25,749 nucleotides of DNA. Origin: Coriobacteriaceae bacterium. GTDB taxonomy: Bacteria; Actinomycetota; Coriobacteriia; Coriobacteriales; Coriobacteriaceae. A program made the position numbers and the translations under genes. This document shows, piece by piece, positions 1 through 25,749 of the stretch. The stretch covers positions 122,500 to 148,248 of the forward strand of contig CABIZD010000006.1 of NCBI GenBank assembly GCA_902363125.1, read 5' to 3'. The first letter of the stretch is position 1. Each line of letters begins with the position of its first letter. The notes beneath the pieces were generated by a model that was not told where the DNA came from, did not search any database, and worked only from the letters and a program-made list of their open reading frames with translations.

Positions 1-897
1 CTCTCCGAGCAGCTGTTCAAGCGTGCCGGCCTCAAGGCCGATTACAACCCCAACGGCAGCGCCTCCGAGGTCGGCGCGGGCGGCTACACGCTCAAGGACG
101 GCGACTCCGTCGTCTGGTGCTACTCGAAGTACGGCGACCCCGCGCCTGTCGCTCAGGTCTCTGCCATGTGCTCCGTCGTCGGCACCGACGCCAAGGGCGC
201 CCAGCAGACCTGGGCCGCCGCGCAGCGGATCACGCTGAAGGAGGGCTCGACCGCGGCCGACCTCTCCGAGCAGCTGTTCAAGCGTGCCGGCCTCAAGGCC
301 GATTACAACCCCAACGGCAGCTGGGGCTGGGCACTCAACTCGATCACGTCGCCCTTCGACTCCGGCCGCACGCTCGCCTACGACTCGGCGACCGGCGCTT
401 ACTGGCAGCTGTTCGTCAACGGCAGCGCCTCCGAGGTCGGCGCGGGCGGCTACACGCTCAAGGACGGCGACTCCGTCGTCTGGTGCTACTCGAAGTACGG
501 CGACCCCGCGCCTGTCGCTCAGGTCTCTGCCATGTGCTCCGTCGTCGGCACCGACGCCAAGGGCGCCCAGCAGACCTGGGCCGCCGCGCAGCGGATCACG
601 CTGAAGGAGGGCTCGACCGCGGCCGACCTCTCCGAGCAGCTCTTCAAGCAGGCCGGCCTGACCACCGACTACGATCCCAACGGCACCTGGGGCTGGGCGC
701 TCAACACGATCACGTCGCCCTTCGATAAGGACCGCAAGCTCGGCTATGACTCGGCGACCGGCGCGTACTGGCAGCTGTTCGTCAACGGCAGCGCCTCCGA
801 GGTCGGCGCGGGCGGCTACACGCTCAAGGACGGCGACTCCGTCGTCTGGTGCTACTCGAAGTACGGCGACCCCGCGCCCGAGCAGGTTTCCGTCACG
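1..897 (+). repeat. Tandem 366-bp (122-codon) DUF4430 repeat units
   Basis: Full units start at ATG 166 and ATG 532, exactly 366 bases apart. The preceding unit (1-165) is shortened: bases 1-60 equal 262-321 and bases 61-165 equal 427-531 without mismatch, so 105 bases (35 codons) are missing between two copies of AACGGCAGC. The units at 166 and 532 are near-identical at both ends and differ mainly over about 100 bases in the middle. A fourth, strongly diverged unit follows at about 890-1195. Confidence 0.9.
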
Positions 898-21041: not shown

Positions 21042-22253
21042 ATGCGTACCGATGATTTTGACTACAACCTTCCCGAGGAACTGATTGCCCAAGCTCCTGC
21101 CGAGCCGCGCGACTCCTGCCGCCTGCTGGTGGTTGATCGCAAGGGCTCCCAGGCGGGAACGCCGCTGGAGCACGGCGGTACCGTTGAGCACCGCATCTTC
21201 CGCGACATCATCGACTATATCGAGCCGGGCGACGTGCTCGTCATCAACAAGACGCGCGTGATGCCGGCCTGCCTGATCGGTCGCAAGGCCGGCTCGGGCG
21301 GCGTGGTCGAGACGCTGCTGCTCAAGCGCCGCGAGGATGTGGATCCGCTGGGCCATGTCTGGGAGTGCCTGGTCAAGCCGGGTAAGCGCCTGAAGCCCGG
21401 TGCTCAGATTGAGTATCGTGCGGGCGGCGCCCATGCGCCCGAGGGCGCGCCCGTGGTGCTGACGGCCGAGGTCGTCGACTTTGTTACCGATAGCCGCGGT
21501 GGCCGTCTGGTGCGCTTTGAGCCGGCCGGTTGCAATGCCGCCGGCGACCCGCGCACGCTCGACGAGGCCATCCACGCTGCCGGCCACGTGCCGCTGCCGC
21601 CCTACATTACCGATTACGAGGGCGATCCCGAGAAGTACCAGACCGTCTACGCCATGAAGGAGGAGCACTCGGCTGCCGCTCCTACGGCGGGTCTGCACTT
21701 TACTCCCGAGCTCATGGCCGCTATCGAGGCCAAGGGCGCGAAGTTTGCCGCCGTCGAGCTCGAGGTGGGTATCGATACCTTCCGTCTGGTGGAGGAGGAC
21801 GACCCTACACAGCACGTGATGCACACCGAGCGCTACCACGTGTCGCAGGAGGTTGTCGACGCTGTGCATAAGGCGAAGGCCGAGGGCCATCGTGTGATCG
21901 CCGTCGGCACTACCGCAGTGCGCTCGCTCGAGAGCGCGTTTGACGCGGACGCGCCGGTGTCCGATCCGGCTGTGACGGCGCGCTATTTTGAGGGCCGCGA
22001 GGACGGGGCCGACACGCTCGGCCGCGGCGACATCGTGGTGCGCGAGAACGCGACAACGCAGCTCTACCTTATGCCCGGCTCGACCTATCACGTGGTCGAC
22101 GCGTTGATCACGAACTTCCACGTGCCTCGCTCTACACTCATGATGCTTGTGAGCGCGCTTGCCACCCGCGACCAGATCATGGATGCCTACGCTGCCGCCA
22201 TCGAGGAGCGCTACCGCTTCTTCAGCTTTGGCGACGCCATGCTCATCTTGTAG
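21042..22253 (+). CDS. queA: tRNA preQ1(34) S-adenosylmethionine ribosyltransferase-isomerase QueA
   Basis: 403 residues. Transfers and isomerises the ribosyl part of S-adenosylmethionine onto preQ1 in tRNA, giving epoxyqueuosine. Family motifs visible: N-terminal FDYNLPEELIAQAP, VLVINKTRVMPA, HAAGHVPLPPYI, TVYA(M)KEEHSAAAPTAGLHFT, GIDTFRLV, HTERYHV, GTTAVRSLES and TNFHVPRSTL. It is longer than E. coli QueA (about 356) because of loops near residues 35-50 and about 300-335. ATG 21042 is chosen because AGAGG lies 6 bases upstream; GTG 21027 has no such site. Strong C/G-ending codon use contrasts with the arginine genes just upstream. The stop codon is followed at once by a 12-bp hairpin. Confidence 0.96.
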   Translation: MRTDDFDYNLPEELIAQAPAEPRDSCRLLVVDRKGSQAGTPLEHGGTVEHRIFRDIIDYIEPGDVLVINKTRVMPACLIGRKAGSGGVVETLLLKRREDVDPLGHVWECLVKPGKRLKPGAQIEYRAGGAHAPEGAPVVLTAEVVDFVTDSRGGRLVRFEPAGCNAAGDPRTLDEAIHAAGHVPLPPYITDYEGDPEKYQTVYAMKEEHSAAAPTAGLHFTPELMAAIEAKGAKFAAVELEVGIDTFRLVEEDDPTQHVMHTERYHVSQEVVDAVHKAKAEGHRVIAVGTTAVRSLESAFDADAPVSDPAVTARYFEGREDGADTLGRGDIVVRENATTQLYLMPGSTYHVVDALITNFHVPRSTLMMLVSALATRDQIMDAYAAAIEERYRFFSFGDAMLIL

Positions 22254-22280
22254 GTTACGGCGTTTTACAAACGCCGTAAC
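22254..22280 (+). terminator. 12-bp hairpin directly after queA
   Basis: GTTACGGCGTTT (22254-22265), loop TAC, AAACGCCGTAAC (22269-22280): a perfect stem starting on the base after the stop codon. A counterpart with compensatory changes follows the SDR gene at 25503-25530. Confidence 0.7.
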
Positions 22281-22283
22281 CGG

Positions 22284-22397
22284 TCGACGCTGCGCGGGCC
22301 GCATTTGGACAATCTGACGTTCAACTTCAAGGGCGCGACCAGAAGGTCAGCGCCCTTTCGTTTCACGTCACCTTGTCTCAAATGCGACCCGCTCGCT
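22284..22397. repeat. 114-bp folded repeat, copy 1
   Basis: Matches 25534-25647 at 113 of 114 positions (A/G at 22387). It folds into one long arm: 22294-22307 with 22379-22392, GACAA with TTGTC, GACGT with ACGTC, and AAGGGCGC-GACC with GGTC-a-GCGCCCTT around an AGAA loop. Together with the hairpin at 22254-22280 it forms a 144-base element. Confidence 0.9.
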
Positions 22398-22445
22398 GAC
22401 TCTGCCATTACATCGGTGTTGCCGTGGTTGTTGAGTAGTCATTGG

Positions 22446-22503
22446 GCACTTGGCACTTGGGGACGTTCCTTTTGTGCCGGCACCTGGGGACACTCCTTAT
22501 GTC
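22446..22503. repeat. REP-like pair of GGCAC(T/C)TGGGGAC units
   Basis: Two adjacent units, 22452-22478 and 22479-22503, share GGCACYTGGGGAC, then TCCTT and TGT; a third partial GGGCACTT precedes them. TGGGGACRYTCCTT-type repeats of this kind are, from memory, common near REP-associated or IS200-like transposases, but no such gene is in the window. Confidence 0.55.
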
Positions 22504-22549
22504 AAGAGATTGGTGCAAGAGGGATAGATTACCTTGCATCAATCTAATA

Positions 22550-22615
22550 AGTTGCGGTGAGATAGTTCTTGAATTGGCTTTTTGAGGGCTAAACAGGAAC
22601 TATCTCACCGCAACT
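22550..22615. repeat. Long palindrome, 19-bp perfect arms, 28-base spacer
   Basis: AGTTGCGGTGAGATAGTTC (22550-22568) is repeated inverted and without mismatch at 22597-22615. No T-run follows on the minus strand, so it is not a typical terminator of the gene ending at 22642. No target-site duplication is obvious. Together with the REP-like pair it fills the gene-free stretch 22398-22641. Confidence 0.75.
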
Positions 22616-22641
22616 GCGTTGAGCGTTTTTTGGCAGCTGGT

Positions 22642-24405
22642 TTACTTGCTCGCGAAGAGCCAGACCAGGATGATCACCAGGATTGCGGCGACGATGCAGA
22701 CGATGGCGCCGGTGAATTTGATGCGTGAGTCGCGGGTACGCTCGCGCACCGCGTCCTCGGTGGCTTCGAGCTGGGTAACCTCTCGCTCGGTCTCGGCGTG
22801 TTCGGCTTTGTCTCGGGCCAAGGATCCTGCAAGCGACTCAGTGATCTCTGGGTGGTCGTGTACCTCGGTCGCCTGCTCGATGATCGACTGTGCATGTGCG
22901 GCATCTGCTTGGGCGTTGGCGATGGTCTGCTCCTGGTCCCGGCGTGCCTTGTCCTCGGCAGTGATCTTCTCGCGCAGTTCGCGCTGACGAGTCGCGGCGG
23001 CGGTTTTTGCGGTCTGCAGCTCGTCGCGCGCGGCATCGGCCTCTGCCGTCACGGCCTGATGGGCTCGCTTGGCGTCGGCGATGGGGGCCTGCGCCTGTTC
23101 GACGGCCTGCTCGGCTGCGGCAAGCGAGTGCTCAAGGTCGGCGGTGATGCGCGGGACATCTTCTTCGGCTTTTCGCAGGGCATCTGCCGTGTCGGAGATC
23201 TGCATCGAGAGCTCGCTGGTGCGCACCGTATAGTTGGCGGGATTTGCCGAGGGATTGCGTTGCAGCTCGGCATACTCATGGCGCAGCGTCTCGAGCTGGG
23301 CGCGCGTGGCGTCGACGGTTTGTTGTGCGGCCGCAATGCCGGCGTCTCGCTCGGCCTTCACCTTGTCGCGGATGCGCTTGGAATCCTCAAGACGTCGAAC
23401 GAGGCGGTTGCCGGTCTCGCGAGAGCTCGCCTCGCGGGCCTCCACGGCGTCGAGCGCGGCCTTCAGGCGGAGCTCAGTCGCGTCATCCTCTGTCTTCATT
23501 TGTTCGAGCTGACCCTTGAGCTCTGCTACTTTGGAAGCATGGACATCGCGATCGATTTCGGCTGCCGCAGCGGTCTTTTGCGCCGTGGCGATCGCCTGGC
23601 GCTGGTCGGCGACGATCTGGTCGTAGCGGCCTGCGATATCCTGGCGCGTCTCGAGTTCCTCGGCCTGATCGGCAATGCGCTGCTCAAGTTCGGCCAGGTG
23701 GGCGCGGGCATCGGCAAGTGCCTTTTTCGCGGCGTTCATCTCGCGCATGGCCGAGGCGCCCTGGGCGATAAAGGTGCCCACGGCGTTCGCAGTGTTCGAG
23801 ACAGCGGTCCCCAGATCGCGGCTCGCGGCGGGGGAGTGCGGGGCGGTCGGGCGAGCGGTGTCGGCAGCGTCCGCATCGGCAACCTGCGGCGCGGCGATAT
23901 TGCCGGTACCGCCCTCGACCACAGAAAAGCCTGCTGCGTGCGGATCGACCGCATCGGCGCCAATCGTGGGGTGCTCGAGCTGCAGAAACGAGGGCATGGT
24001 GCTGCCCTGGTCGGCAACCGGAGTCTCGCCGGGCACAAAGGTCGAGGCCGCCACGGCGGCCTCCTCTTCCTCGGCATCAATATCGGCATCGGCGACGGCG
24101 TTTTTCATCGCTTTGACAGCATCCATCATGGAGTCCATGACGGCATCGAGCTCTTCTTCCGAAGACACCTCGATGGGGCCCGCTGCTTGCGGGGCGTCGT
24201 CCTGTACAGGGGCGTCGTCCTGAGCGGGCGCATCGTCGTTTTGCTCATCGGCGTTTTCTGTTTCGGGGGTTTCCGCCGTAGCGCTTTCGTTCAAGATGGG
24301 GTCGTCGATGTCGATACCATCGCAGGTCACAGCGTCAGTATCTGCGGTGACGTTTGCGGAATCATCAATATGCTGTTGAGTCTGGGGGTCCAGCTCGTCT
24401 GTCAT
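22642..24405 (-). CDS. Tail-anchored coiled-coil protein, function unknown
   Basis: 587 residues. The N-terminal ~150 are strongly acidic (runs of D/E with repeated AQDDAPVQDDAP-like segments), then an Ala/Pro-rich region to about 200. A long heptad-rich coiled coil follows (about 220-550) full of Ala, Glu, Gln, Lys and Arg, with one break around NPSANPANYT. It ends in a single hydrophobic helix (GAIVCIVAAILVIILVWLF) and only three residues (ASK), so it is C-terminally anchored with the bulk in the cytoplasm. ATG 24405 is preferred: GAGGAG lies 9 bases upstream, while ATG 24411 is only 3 bases from it. It is a lone minus-strand gene. A structural, polar-scaffold or envelope-tethering role is conceivable but not shown. 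Confidence 0.8.
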   Translation of the reverse strand: MTDELDPQTQQHIDDSANVTADTDAVTCDGIDIDDPILNESATAETPETENADEQNDDAPAQDDAPVQDDAPQAAGPIEVSSEEELDAVMDSMMDAVKAMKNAVADADIDAEEEEAAVAASTFVPGETPVADQGSTMPSFLQLEHPTIGADAVDPHAAGFSVVEGGTGNIAAPQVADADAADTARPTAPHSPAASRDLGTAVSNTANAVGTFIAQGASAMREMNAAKKALADARAHLAELEQRIADQAEELETRQDIAGRYDQIVADQRQAIATAQKTAAAAEIDRDVHASKVAELKGQLEQMKTEDDATELRLKAALDAVEAREASSRETGNRLVRRLEDSKRIRDKVKAERDAGIAAAQQTVDATRAQLETLRHEYAELQRNPSANPANYTVRTSELSMQISDTADALRKAEEDVPRITADLEHSLAAAEQAVEQAQAPIADAKRAHQAVTAEADAARDELQTAKTAAATRQRELREKITAEDKARRDQEQTIANAQADAAHAQSIIEQATEVHDHPEITESLAGSLARDKAEHAETEREVTQLEATEDAVRERTRDSRIKFTGAIVCIVAAILVIILVWLFASK

Positions 24406-24496
24406 AGGCATGTGCTCCTCATCGTTGTTTGTCACCCTATGATAAAGTCTCGCGCCGACATCCCGCGCGCCGCAGCAAAGTTTCAAAACGTGTTCG

Positions 24497-24688
24497 ATGG
24501 CTCGATCTGATAGCAATAACTCGATCGCTTTATTCAGTTTGTACTTGACAATCCCTTCGCCGAACGACGTGGTGCCGTTCGCCTGCCATGGGCTTTATTT
24601 TTCACTTGAAGAAGCTAAAGTTGCATTTCAGCTTTTGGCGCGTGAAGTTGGATGCGCGCAGTCGGCGGGCGTGCCCGTCGCGATTTGA
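24497..24688 (+). CDS. Possible small protein, 63 residues (doubtful)
   Basis: An open frame in the 24406-24699 gap, starting MARSDSNNSIAL and ending SAGVPVAI. It ends 11 bases before the SDR start and contains one plausible amphipathic helix (SLEEAKVAFQLLAREVG). There is no ribosome site before its ATG and no recognised family. A TTGACA at about 24548 lies inside it and could belong to the SDR promoter instead, although no -10 follows at the right distance. Confidence 0.2.
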   Translation: MARSDSNNSIALFSLYLTIPSPNDVVPFACHGLYFSLEEAKVAFQLLAREVGCAQSAGVPVAI

Positions 24689-24699
24689 AAGGACTTTGT

Positions 24700-25500
24700 A
24701 TGGGACTTTTCACTGGTAAGACCGTGATCGTCACCGGCGGCGGCAAGGCCACGCTTAAGGACGGTTCCGCTGGCTCCATCGGCTACGGCATCGATATCGC
24801 ATTTGCCAAGGAGGGCGCGAACCTCGTCATCACCGGCCGCAACGTCGCCAAGCTCGAGGCCGCCAAGGAGTCTCTCGAGGCCGAGTACGGCGTCAAGGTT
24901 CTGCCTGTTCAGGCCGATGTCTCGGCTGGTCAGGACAACGAGGCCGTCGTCCAGAACGTCATCGACAAGGCCATTGAGGAGTTCGGCCGCATCGACGCCG
25001 TCGTCAACAATGCTCAGGCCAGCGCCTCGGGCGTGACCATCGCCGATCACACCATGGATCAGTTCAACCTGGCCATTTACTCTGGCCTGTATGCCACCTA
25101 CCTGTACATGCAGAAGGCCTATCCGCACCTGAAGGAGACCAAGGGCTCCGTGGTCAACTTCGCTTCGGGCGCCGGCCTGTTTGGCAATTATGGCCAGTGC
25201 AGCTATGCCGCCGCCAAGGAGGGCATCCGCGGCCTGACCCGCGTTGCCGCCAACGAGTGGGGCAAGGACGGCATCAACGTCAACATCGTGTGCCCGCTTG
25301 CTTGGACCGCTGCGCTCGAGAACTTCCAGGATGCCTATCCCGAGGCGTTCAAGGCCAACGTCCACATGCCGCCGGCGGGTCACTACGGCGACGTCGAGAA
25401 GGAGATCGGCCGCGTTGTCGTTCAGCTCTGCGGTCCCGACTTTAAGTACATGAACGGCGAGACCGTCACCCTCGAGGGTGGCATGGGCCAGCGGCCTTAG
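24700..25500 (+). CDS. SDR-family NAD(P)-dependent oxidoreductase
   Basis: 266 residues, the size of a classical short-chain dehydrogenase. The cofactor loop is expanded: TGGG at 12-15 is followed by KATLKDGSA before GSIGYGI, where classical members have TGxxxGIG. Further motifs: ADVS, NNAQA (in place of NNAG), FASGAG with the catalytic Ser, and YAAAK with the catalytic Tyr and Lys, then a C-terminal GGMGQRP. The substrate cannot be assigned. AAAGGA lies 6 bases before ATG 24700; an upstream ATG at 24652 lacks support. Codons are almost all C/G-ending, a sign of high expression. A terminator-like hairpin and the second copy of the 114-bp repeat follow directly. Confidence 0.93.
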   Translation: MGLFTGKTVIVTGGGKATLKDGSAGSIGYGIDIAFAKEGANLVITGRNVAKLEAAKESLEAEYGVKVLPVQADVSAGQDNEAVVQNVIDKAIEEFGRIDAVVNNAQASASGVTIADHTMDQFNLAIYSGLYATYLYMQKAYPHLKETKGSVVNFASGAGLFGNYGQCSYAAAKEGIRGLTRVAANEWGKDGINVNIVCPLAWTAALENFQDAYPEAFKANVHMPPAGHYGDVEKEIGRVVVQLCGPDFKYMNGETVTLEGGMGQRP

Positions 25501-25502
25501 GG

Positions 25503-25530
25503 GTTACGCGGTTTTACCAAACCGCGTAAC
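25503..25530 (+). terminator. 12-bp hairpin directly after the SDR gene
   Basis: GTTACGCGGTTT, loop TACC, AAACCGCGTAAC: a perfect stem two bases after the stop codon. Compared with the hairpin after queA, two G-C/C-G pairs are swapped on both arms, keeping the pairing. Confidence 0.7.
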
Positions 25531-25533
25531 GGC

Positions 25534-25647
25534 TCGACGCTGCGCGGGCCGCATTTGGACAATCTGACGTTCAACTTCAAGGGCGCGACCAGAAGGTCAG
25601 CGCCCTTTCGTTTCACGTCACCTTGTCTCAAATGCGGCCCGCTCGCT
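25534..25647. repeat. 114-bp folded repeat, copy 2
   Basis: 113 of 114 positions match 22284-22397, in the same orientation and 3250 bases apart. In this copy the outer arm GCGGGCCGCATTTG (25544-25557) pairs perfectly with 25629-25642. Confidence 0.9.
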
Positions 25648-25680
25648 CATATGACCCAATCCGCTGTCAAGAGCCACAAT

Positions 25681-25716
25681 GGCCCCGCCGACCGCTTGCA
25701 ATCGGTCGGCGGGGCC
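25681..25716. terminator. 14-bp GC-rich hairpin near the window end
   Basis: GGCCCCGCCGACCG (25681-25694), loop CTTGCAAT, CGGTCGGCGGGGCC (25703-25716), a perfect stem with no T-run. It may terminate transcription from beyond the window. The last 33 bases show nothing else. Confidence 0.5.
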
Positions 25717-25749
25717 TGCCGTTGAACCCGTCCCGGTCCGCCCCCGGCA

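Follow-up and report, generated by a model that had tools for sequence, protein, structure and literature searches.

Two near-identical hairpin elements at stop codons are members of a large, apparently undescribed DNA repeat family in Coriobacteriales

Why should two different genes end in nearly the same long palindromic sequence? In the window (the whole 25,749-nucleotide stretch of DNA that was analysed), one copy of such a sequence (copy 1; 22254–22397, + strand) starts 0 nt after the stop codon of queA and the other (copy 2; 25503–25647, + strand) starts 2 nt after that of a short-chain dehydrogenase/reductase (SDR) gene. The earlier note had described this placement, and had suggested that the sequence is a structured element of about 145 bp which is either a mobile palindrome doubling as a terminator or a structured 3′ UTR RNA. 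The two copies are indeed strongly structured, with folding-energy z scores of −10.58 and −10.66 and none of 200 shuffled sequences equalling either value. The near-identity of a 114-nt block starting at 22284 was likewise confirmed, position 22387 being the sole difference between the copies.

The unit runs in the order stop codon, 0–5 nt, a first hairpin (H1), a linker ending in GACGCTGC, a long interrupted hairpin (H2), TCGCT and a tail. The queA gene ends with TAG (22251–22253), and the next base is the first of H1 of copy 1 (22254–22280; a 12-bp stem with the 3-nt loop TAC). This is followed by the linker (22281–22293, with the conserved GACGCTGC at its end), H2 (22294–22392; outer type GCGGGCCGCATTT), TCGCT (22393–22397) and a tail module of the GAC...CATCGGTGTTGCC type (22398–22423), which is semi-conserved among copies and has a blurred end. 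The SDR gene also ends with TAG (25498–25500), which is followed by GG and then by H1 of copy 2 (25503–25530; a 12-bp stem with the 4-nt loop TACC), a linker containing GACGCTGC (25531–25543), H2 of the same type as in copy 1 (25544–25642) and TCGCT (25643–25647); all of these features lie on the + strand. TCGCT is invariant in alignment A1. The H1 stems of the two copies differ by swapped base pairs that are altered on both arms, so that pairing is kept, as had been claimed. The extent of about 145 nt first given to the unit is right for the structured part but incomplete, as it also includes the linker motif GACGCTGC and roughly 25 nt of tail. The tail occurs in several alternative forms; downstream of copy 2 lies an alternative module, CATATGACCC... 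(25648–25720, + strand), which has its own GC-rich hairpin and also follows some other copies.

Other repeats are found close by. A second, REP-like family (GTAGTCATTGGGGACG..., GGCACTTGGGGACGTTCC) follows many copies of the element and is present in the window at 22437–22502. At 22548–22617 a long inverted repeat, TTGCGGTGAGATAGTTC...GAACTATCTCACCGCAA, precedes a convergent gene and is also found after queA at locus L189; an Rfam match to mir-4798 at the same position is under its cut-off. At the start of the window (1–878), repeats spaced by 366 bp lie within a long open frame.

The two window copies are members of a large and apparently undescribed family of hairpin DNA repeats. A BLAST search with copy 2 gave 33 matches in the nearest genome, several of which are the same palindrome met again on the reverse strand; of the 98 genomes searched, 34 had a match. 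A pattern scan returned at least 120 stretches in named genomes, and among those listed all 80 of 80 are from Collinsella. A covariance model of the element (R1) found 40, 43, 47 and 45 matches in four Collinsella genomes, counts that take in partial and reverse-strand matches. When up to 21 candidates per genome were scored across relatives, matches to R1 were present in at least 70 of 148 genomes and at least 18 of 63 genera; they extend to a second family of Coriobacteriales, where a single genome of 3.9 Mb has as many as 50. The search of relatives proposed in the earlier note therefore shows that the element is not confined to two copies, with dozens of matches per Collinsella genome. Neither an exact pattern search of viral contigs nor a BLAST search of phage records found the element, and the single plasmid record is a 900-kb replicon of C. 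aerofaciens; carriage by phages or plasmids was rejected. That record (NZ_OY725717.1; 899,693 bp), labelled plasmid 6, carries rpoC, tyrS and lysS and thus looks like a piece of chromosome.

The position at gene ends is a property of the family. After copies shorter than 135 nt or without a GT/AT start were dropped, 61 full copies with H1 remained, and 50 of these start between −1 and +5 nt from the stop codon of a long co-oriented frame (70 of 71 matches were mapped, one reverse-strand partner being omitted). For a control repeat, GGGGACGTTC, only one of 14 cases is within 20 nt of a stop, although this control is small. TAG is over-used at the element-bearing stops (38/50 versus 246/528 genes without the element; p = 9 × 10⁻⁵). 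Stop adjacency agrees with the RefSeq annotation of one C. aerofaciens record in 10 of 10 copies (those of at least 143 nt among the copies listed for one contig; the record was equated with contig G008:C6 from equal coordinates). The genes that end between −1 and +4 nt from H1 in this record encode an M20 peptidase, the SDR, QueA, a DAHP synthase, a hexose kinase, LacB, TyrS, LysS, a D-2-hydroxyacid dehydrogenase and RpoC. Of 53 copies in the second family, 23 lie between −1 and +4 nt from a stop, and seven others have the stop of the reading frame within the H1 loop. Greater distances are in part explained by tandem arrangement, where the H1 and linker of an older copy persist upstream. IS110 elements target REP-like palindromes, and an IS110 transposase gene (NZ_OY725717.1, 458120–459232) was seen about 100 nt from the element copy that follows tyrS.

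Across copies, H1 is a GTTNCG...CGNAAC hairpin with a loop of 3–4 nt. The stem sequence of H2, which is about 100 nt in length, is free to vary while its irregularities are conserved: TC/CC and TC/TC mismatches, two bulges and the tip GACC...GGTC. Most of these mismatches become tandem GA when viewed from the opposite strand. In an alignment of 71 matches, 95.3% of the cells are paired (73.5% when shuffled and 31–40% when slid) and 43 of 47 pairs show a two-sided change; since this alignment was fitted to the model, the pairing figure is partly by construction. RNAalifold, run on 41 copies aligned with MAFFT, gave double changes in 35 of 50 pairs. Loss of pairing without compensation, which would have spoken against a conserved structure, is thus not what is seen among the further copies. 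Covariation had also been taken as a sign of selection on structure. The pairs do covary, but the step to selection is weaker than it appears because both arms are often replaced jointly as a block, and copying alone can preserve pairing. The conserved mismatches and bulges are a better argument for selection than the covariation. As the copies are related, counts of this kind (of pairs, strands or sites) are of non-independent events.

Which nucleic acid is the folded form was addressed by comparing the two strands. Among 180 distinct copies of at least 138 nt, the better-folding H2 strand is the one opposite to the mRNA in 172 (57/59 and 66/69 in Collinsella and 49/52 in the second family). 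H1 has no preference, its opposite strand being better in 90 of 180, and a random-loop control gave 94 of 200. DNA folding parameters give the same result for H2 (opposite strand better in 59/59 and 51/52). In the Collinsella alignments, with one bulge column pair excluded, A·C mismatches on the plus strand outnumber G·U pairs by 102 to 57 (105 and 60 before de-duplication). The better folding of the opposite H2 strand and the excess of A·C suggest that the selected form is probably something other than a plus-strand RNA. No Rfam family matched the window at the gathering score, and a loose search of positions 22100–25749 (3.65 kb) and of eight loci also gave nothing at that score. A structured plus-strand RNA is disfavoured by these searches together with the strand comparison, and a structured 3′ UTR on the mRNA strand is accordingly the less supported of the two original suggestions.

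The elements are also oriented with respect to replication. Of 93 listed copies in three complete genomes, 86 run with the replichore, compared with 295 of 509 sampled genes. The individual values for elements and genes are 35/38 and 145/263 in G120 (binomial p = 8 × 10⁻⁷), 29/31 and 92/133 in G114 (p = 1 × 10⁻³) and 22/24 and 58/113 in G135 (p = 3 × 10⁻⁵); the copies listed are 38 of 50, 31 of 41 and 24 of 34, respectively. The arc limits in G120 were first taken from the elements themselves and then checked against GC skew, which agreed in 19 of 20 stretches, the exception being one border stretch. For G114 and G135 the limits were position 0 as origin and half of the genome, with which the skew agreed in 20 of 20 stretches. 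In the Collinsella genome G042, 216 of 305 genes within a 400-kb piece already run in one direction; Collinsella alone is therefore unconvincing and the claim rests on G120, G114 and G135. This orientation places the better-folding strand on the leading-strand template. Part of the bias could stem from the kind of gene that carries the element, from how strongly it is expressed or from whether it is essential.

Comparison of orthologous gene ends shows how the copies change. After queA, the element is present in the window and in the 15 most similar of 30 loci, where two types of H1 and at least three of H2 occur in mixed combinations; the 15 remaining loci, from the same genus, lack it. After the SDR gene, it is present in the window and in 13 of 22 loci, with the H2 tip deleted at one locus and the sequence unreadable at a contig end at another. 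Two syntenic 400-kb pieces, compared by eye using 22 of 32 model hits, offer nine comparable sites with a copy scoring above 100 bits: seven are filled in both genomes and two in one genome only. Six of the seven doubly filled sites differ in H1, in H2 or by a nested copy, and one is nearly unchanged. In total, 151 parsed distinct copies comprise 21 outer-stem types and eight inner types, with mosaics, and the three main H1 types combine with 15, six and 13 outer types. H1, the outer stem and the inner hairpin are thus swapped as modules, even at one gene end. New copies also start within old ones: a new H1 starts within the H2 loop of older elements at L187, L189 and L318, new copies start within an older H1 at SDR loci L211 and L217–L219, and others begin directly past the linker of an older element. 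The site comparison defined no target-site duplication or clean empty site; what was seen were replacements and nested copies. The proposal of recent copying or gene conversion is borne out by this exchange of modules at orthologous gene ends. The copies at locus L402 in G120 and locus L360 in G114 follow the same gene end and look vertically kept, which would fit a host element as well.

Several further hairpins were noted during this comparison. Draft contigs stop at the H2 tip (model position 86–88) at L069, L073, L089 and L109, likely an assembly break at the palindrome. At the sites in G014 orthologous to L317:10308–10452 and L313:10497–10595, another family of long hairpins, with a variable outer stem and an inner CAGTCCTGC...CACATTAAGTG...GTGCGGAACTCGCGA, occupies the place where the other genome has the element. 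H2-like hairpins without H1, in which the outer conserved motifs are on swapped arms, occur at L309:5461–5583, L326:6876–7024 and L313:10497–10595 and past the SDR stop at L225; these are possibly a sister family.

Taken together, we favour, with moderate confidence, the interpretation that these are non-coding, non-autonomous DNA hairpin elements found across Coriobacteriales, which are copied and exchanged with replication and are anchored at gene 3′ ends. On this model, copies would be made and swapped at the level of DNA while the chromosome replicates. What is recognised, or is prone to break, would be the hairpin of the bottom strand, which has tandem G–A mismatches and bulges; after a break or a stall at its tip, another element might serve as the template through short shared blocks, and such copying would replace both arms together and so preserve pairing. 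The position after the stop would be tolerated by the host or even used, the inner hairpin and U-run of some copies being a plausible terminator. Hairpin breakage with short-homology copying would explain the paired changes with few wobble intermediates, the half-element remnants and the orientation. Something more is needed to account for the conserved mismatches, the simplest candidate being recognition by a protein. Against this interpretation, searches for an integron integrase and for a Y1 transposase found no dedicated enzyme, the offset from the stop (−1 to +5) varies in a way unlike sequence-specific insertion, and H1 is without the strand preference of H2.

The family could instead be a host-encoded 3′ end element, a terminator and mRNA-end hairpin that is inherited vertically, selected beside the stop and homogenised by gene conversion, a reading that we consider unlikely but credible. 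It would account for the tight placement at stops and for the presence of the element after rpoC, tyrS and lysS, and some Collinsella that lack the element have, by eye, a U-run terminator at the equivalent gene end. In 16 of 61 copies the inner H2 hairpin and its U-run satisfy a strict test for terminators, and in the smaller gene-called set a terminator is present at 8 of 13 element ends compared with 84 of 274 other ends (p = 0.03). However, 45 of the 61 inner hairpins fail the same test; of the 61 element ends, 20 had a canonical terminator within 300 nt, which in 16 cases was the inner H2 hairpin itself, and this share is near the 84 of 274 for other ends. The suggestion of a mobile palindrome that doubles as a terminator holds for the repeated palindrome, with termination possible in a minority of copies. 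Termination within H2 would also leave the conserved 3′ arm untranscribed, the better-folding H2 strand is not that of the transcript, copies are found nested and replaced at one and the same site, and 78 of 148 relatives have no match among the up to 21 candidates scored per genome.

A more specific form of exchange would be a dispersed system resembling integron attC sites without the integron, in which bottom-strand hairpins past stop codons would be swapped one module at a time, in time with the replication fork, by a putative structure-specific enzyme or by programmed hairpin breakage. We regard this as doubtful; if true, it would mean interchangeable gene ends for a whole order of gut bacteria.

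An RNA transcribed antisense with respect to the upstream gene, as a separate sRNA or as the 3′ UTR of a gene converging on it, would agree with the better folding of the antisense H2 strand in 172 of 180 copies and with the 102 G·U pairs to 57 A·C mismatches found on it. The sequence cUUCGg, a stable RNA loop, forms the tip on this strand in 22 of 52 second-family copies, but is scarce in the two Collinsella sets (4 of 59 and 8 of 69). Such an RNA nevertheless appears improbable, given that DNA parameters show the same strand preference and that there is no Rfam match; in addition, 173 of 180 copies have G-N-N-A or G-N-A as the antisense-strand H1 loop, and these are stable loops of DNA rather than of RNA. 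Neutral upkeep of palindromes by template-switch correction, with no recognised form or function, would agree with the few wobble intermediates and the joint alteration of both arms. We judge it very improbable: the specific mismatches and bulges, the linker and TCGCT recur in two families, where correction should erase them, and the placement at stops is strict.

Mobilisation of a REPIN-like element by a RAYT (Y1 transposase) is hardly tenable, and as a general cause was largely refuted: a Y1 match is found in 36 of 42 Collinsella genomes, and the six without one have only 0–4 R1 matches, all weak, among the up to 21 candidates scored per genome, but six of ten copy-bearing genomes (including G120, G114 and G135), with 18–50 R1 matches each, have no Y1 match, a copy is nearby at only one of 28 Y1 loci, and inspected RAYT genes are, by eye, often flanked by other, GTAG-like repeats. 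The correlation between Y1 and the element within Collinsella speaks against this rejection, and phylogeny may be its source. Several of the Collinsella Y1 (RAYT) genes that were inspected have GTAG-type repeats on their flanks.

If the elements are DNA hairpins exchanged with replication, as favoured here, they would be a repeat family with base-level stop-codon placement and replication polarity in common human gut bacteria. They would offer a natural test of how hairpin DNA spreads, of how palindromes stay paired without selection on RNA and of modular swapping at gene ends. They also carry a caution, in that strong covariation in an alignment need not imply a functional RNA.

Among known systems, the miniature repeats ERIC/IRU, Correia, BOX and RUP are imperfect intergenic palindromes of about 100–170 bp, and the element resembles them in this and in its size; they are not known to be anchored at stop codons or to swap modules in a comparable way. 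Like REP/BIME sequences and the GTAG-tagged, RAYT-associated REPINs, the copies are dispersed intergenic palindromes, often 3′ of genes and numbering tens to hundreds. Unlike these, the element has no GTAG tag at the hairpin foot, where the bases before H1 vary; it is a much longer two-hairpin unit with precise stop-codon anchoring, its stems are variable with conserved inner mismatches, and there is no linked RAYT at 27 of 28 loci. The integron attC site follows a gene and has the consensus boxes R″ (RYYYAAC) and R′ (GTTRRRY). By eye these boxes are absent from the element, since in most copies a G interrupts the YYY run in the H1 arms GTTNCG/CGNAAC. No match to the integron integrase model TIGR02249 exceeded the cut-off in the ten copy-bearing genomes examined; matches below it were present in all ten and in all 14 control genomes. 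Membership of an integron was rejected. The element further differs from attC in that its copies are dispersed rather than in arrays and carry the extra hairpin H1. The likeness is in a variable sequence that keeps an imperfect hairpin with conserved irregularities and a preferred bottom strand, as attC is described in PMC8946536. According to that paper, the attC bottom strands of chromosomal integrons lie mostly on the leading-strand template; the bottom strand of the element likewise folds preferentially (in H2, not in H1) and lies on the leading-strand template. The CGTC-tagged REPs are also palindromic repeats without a dedicated transposase. In the sections of PMC3733652 that describe them, they have stems of 8–9 bp, loops of 4–5 nt, a CGTC tag at one end and a CCA-type tail; compared with this description, the stems of the element are far longer and its minus-strand CGTC is away from the hairpin foot. 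A literature search returned no description of the family; a term search of PMC6006769 gave no match, and the 250 palindromic candidates from human microbiomes listed in PMC8040213 might include it. The element is a new family within a known broad kind, the dispersed palindromic repeats, among which its anchoring, polarity and modularity are unusual.
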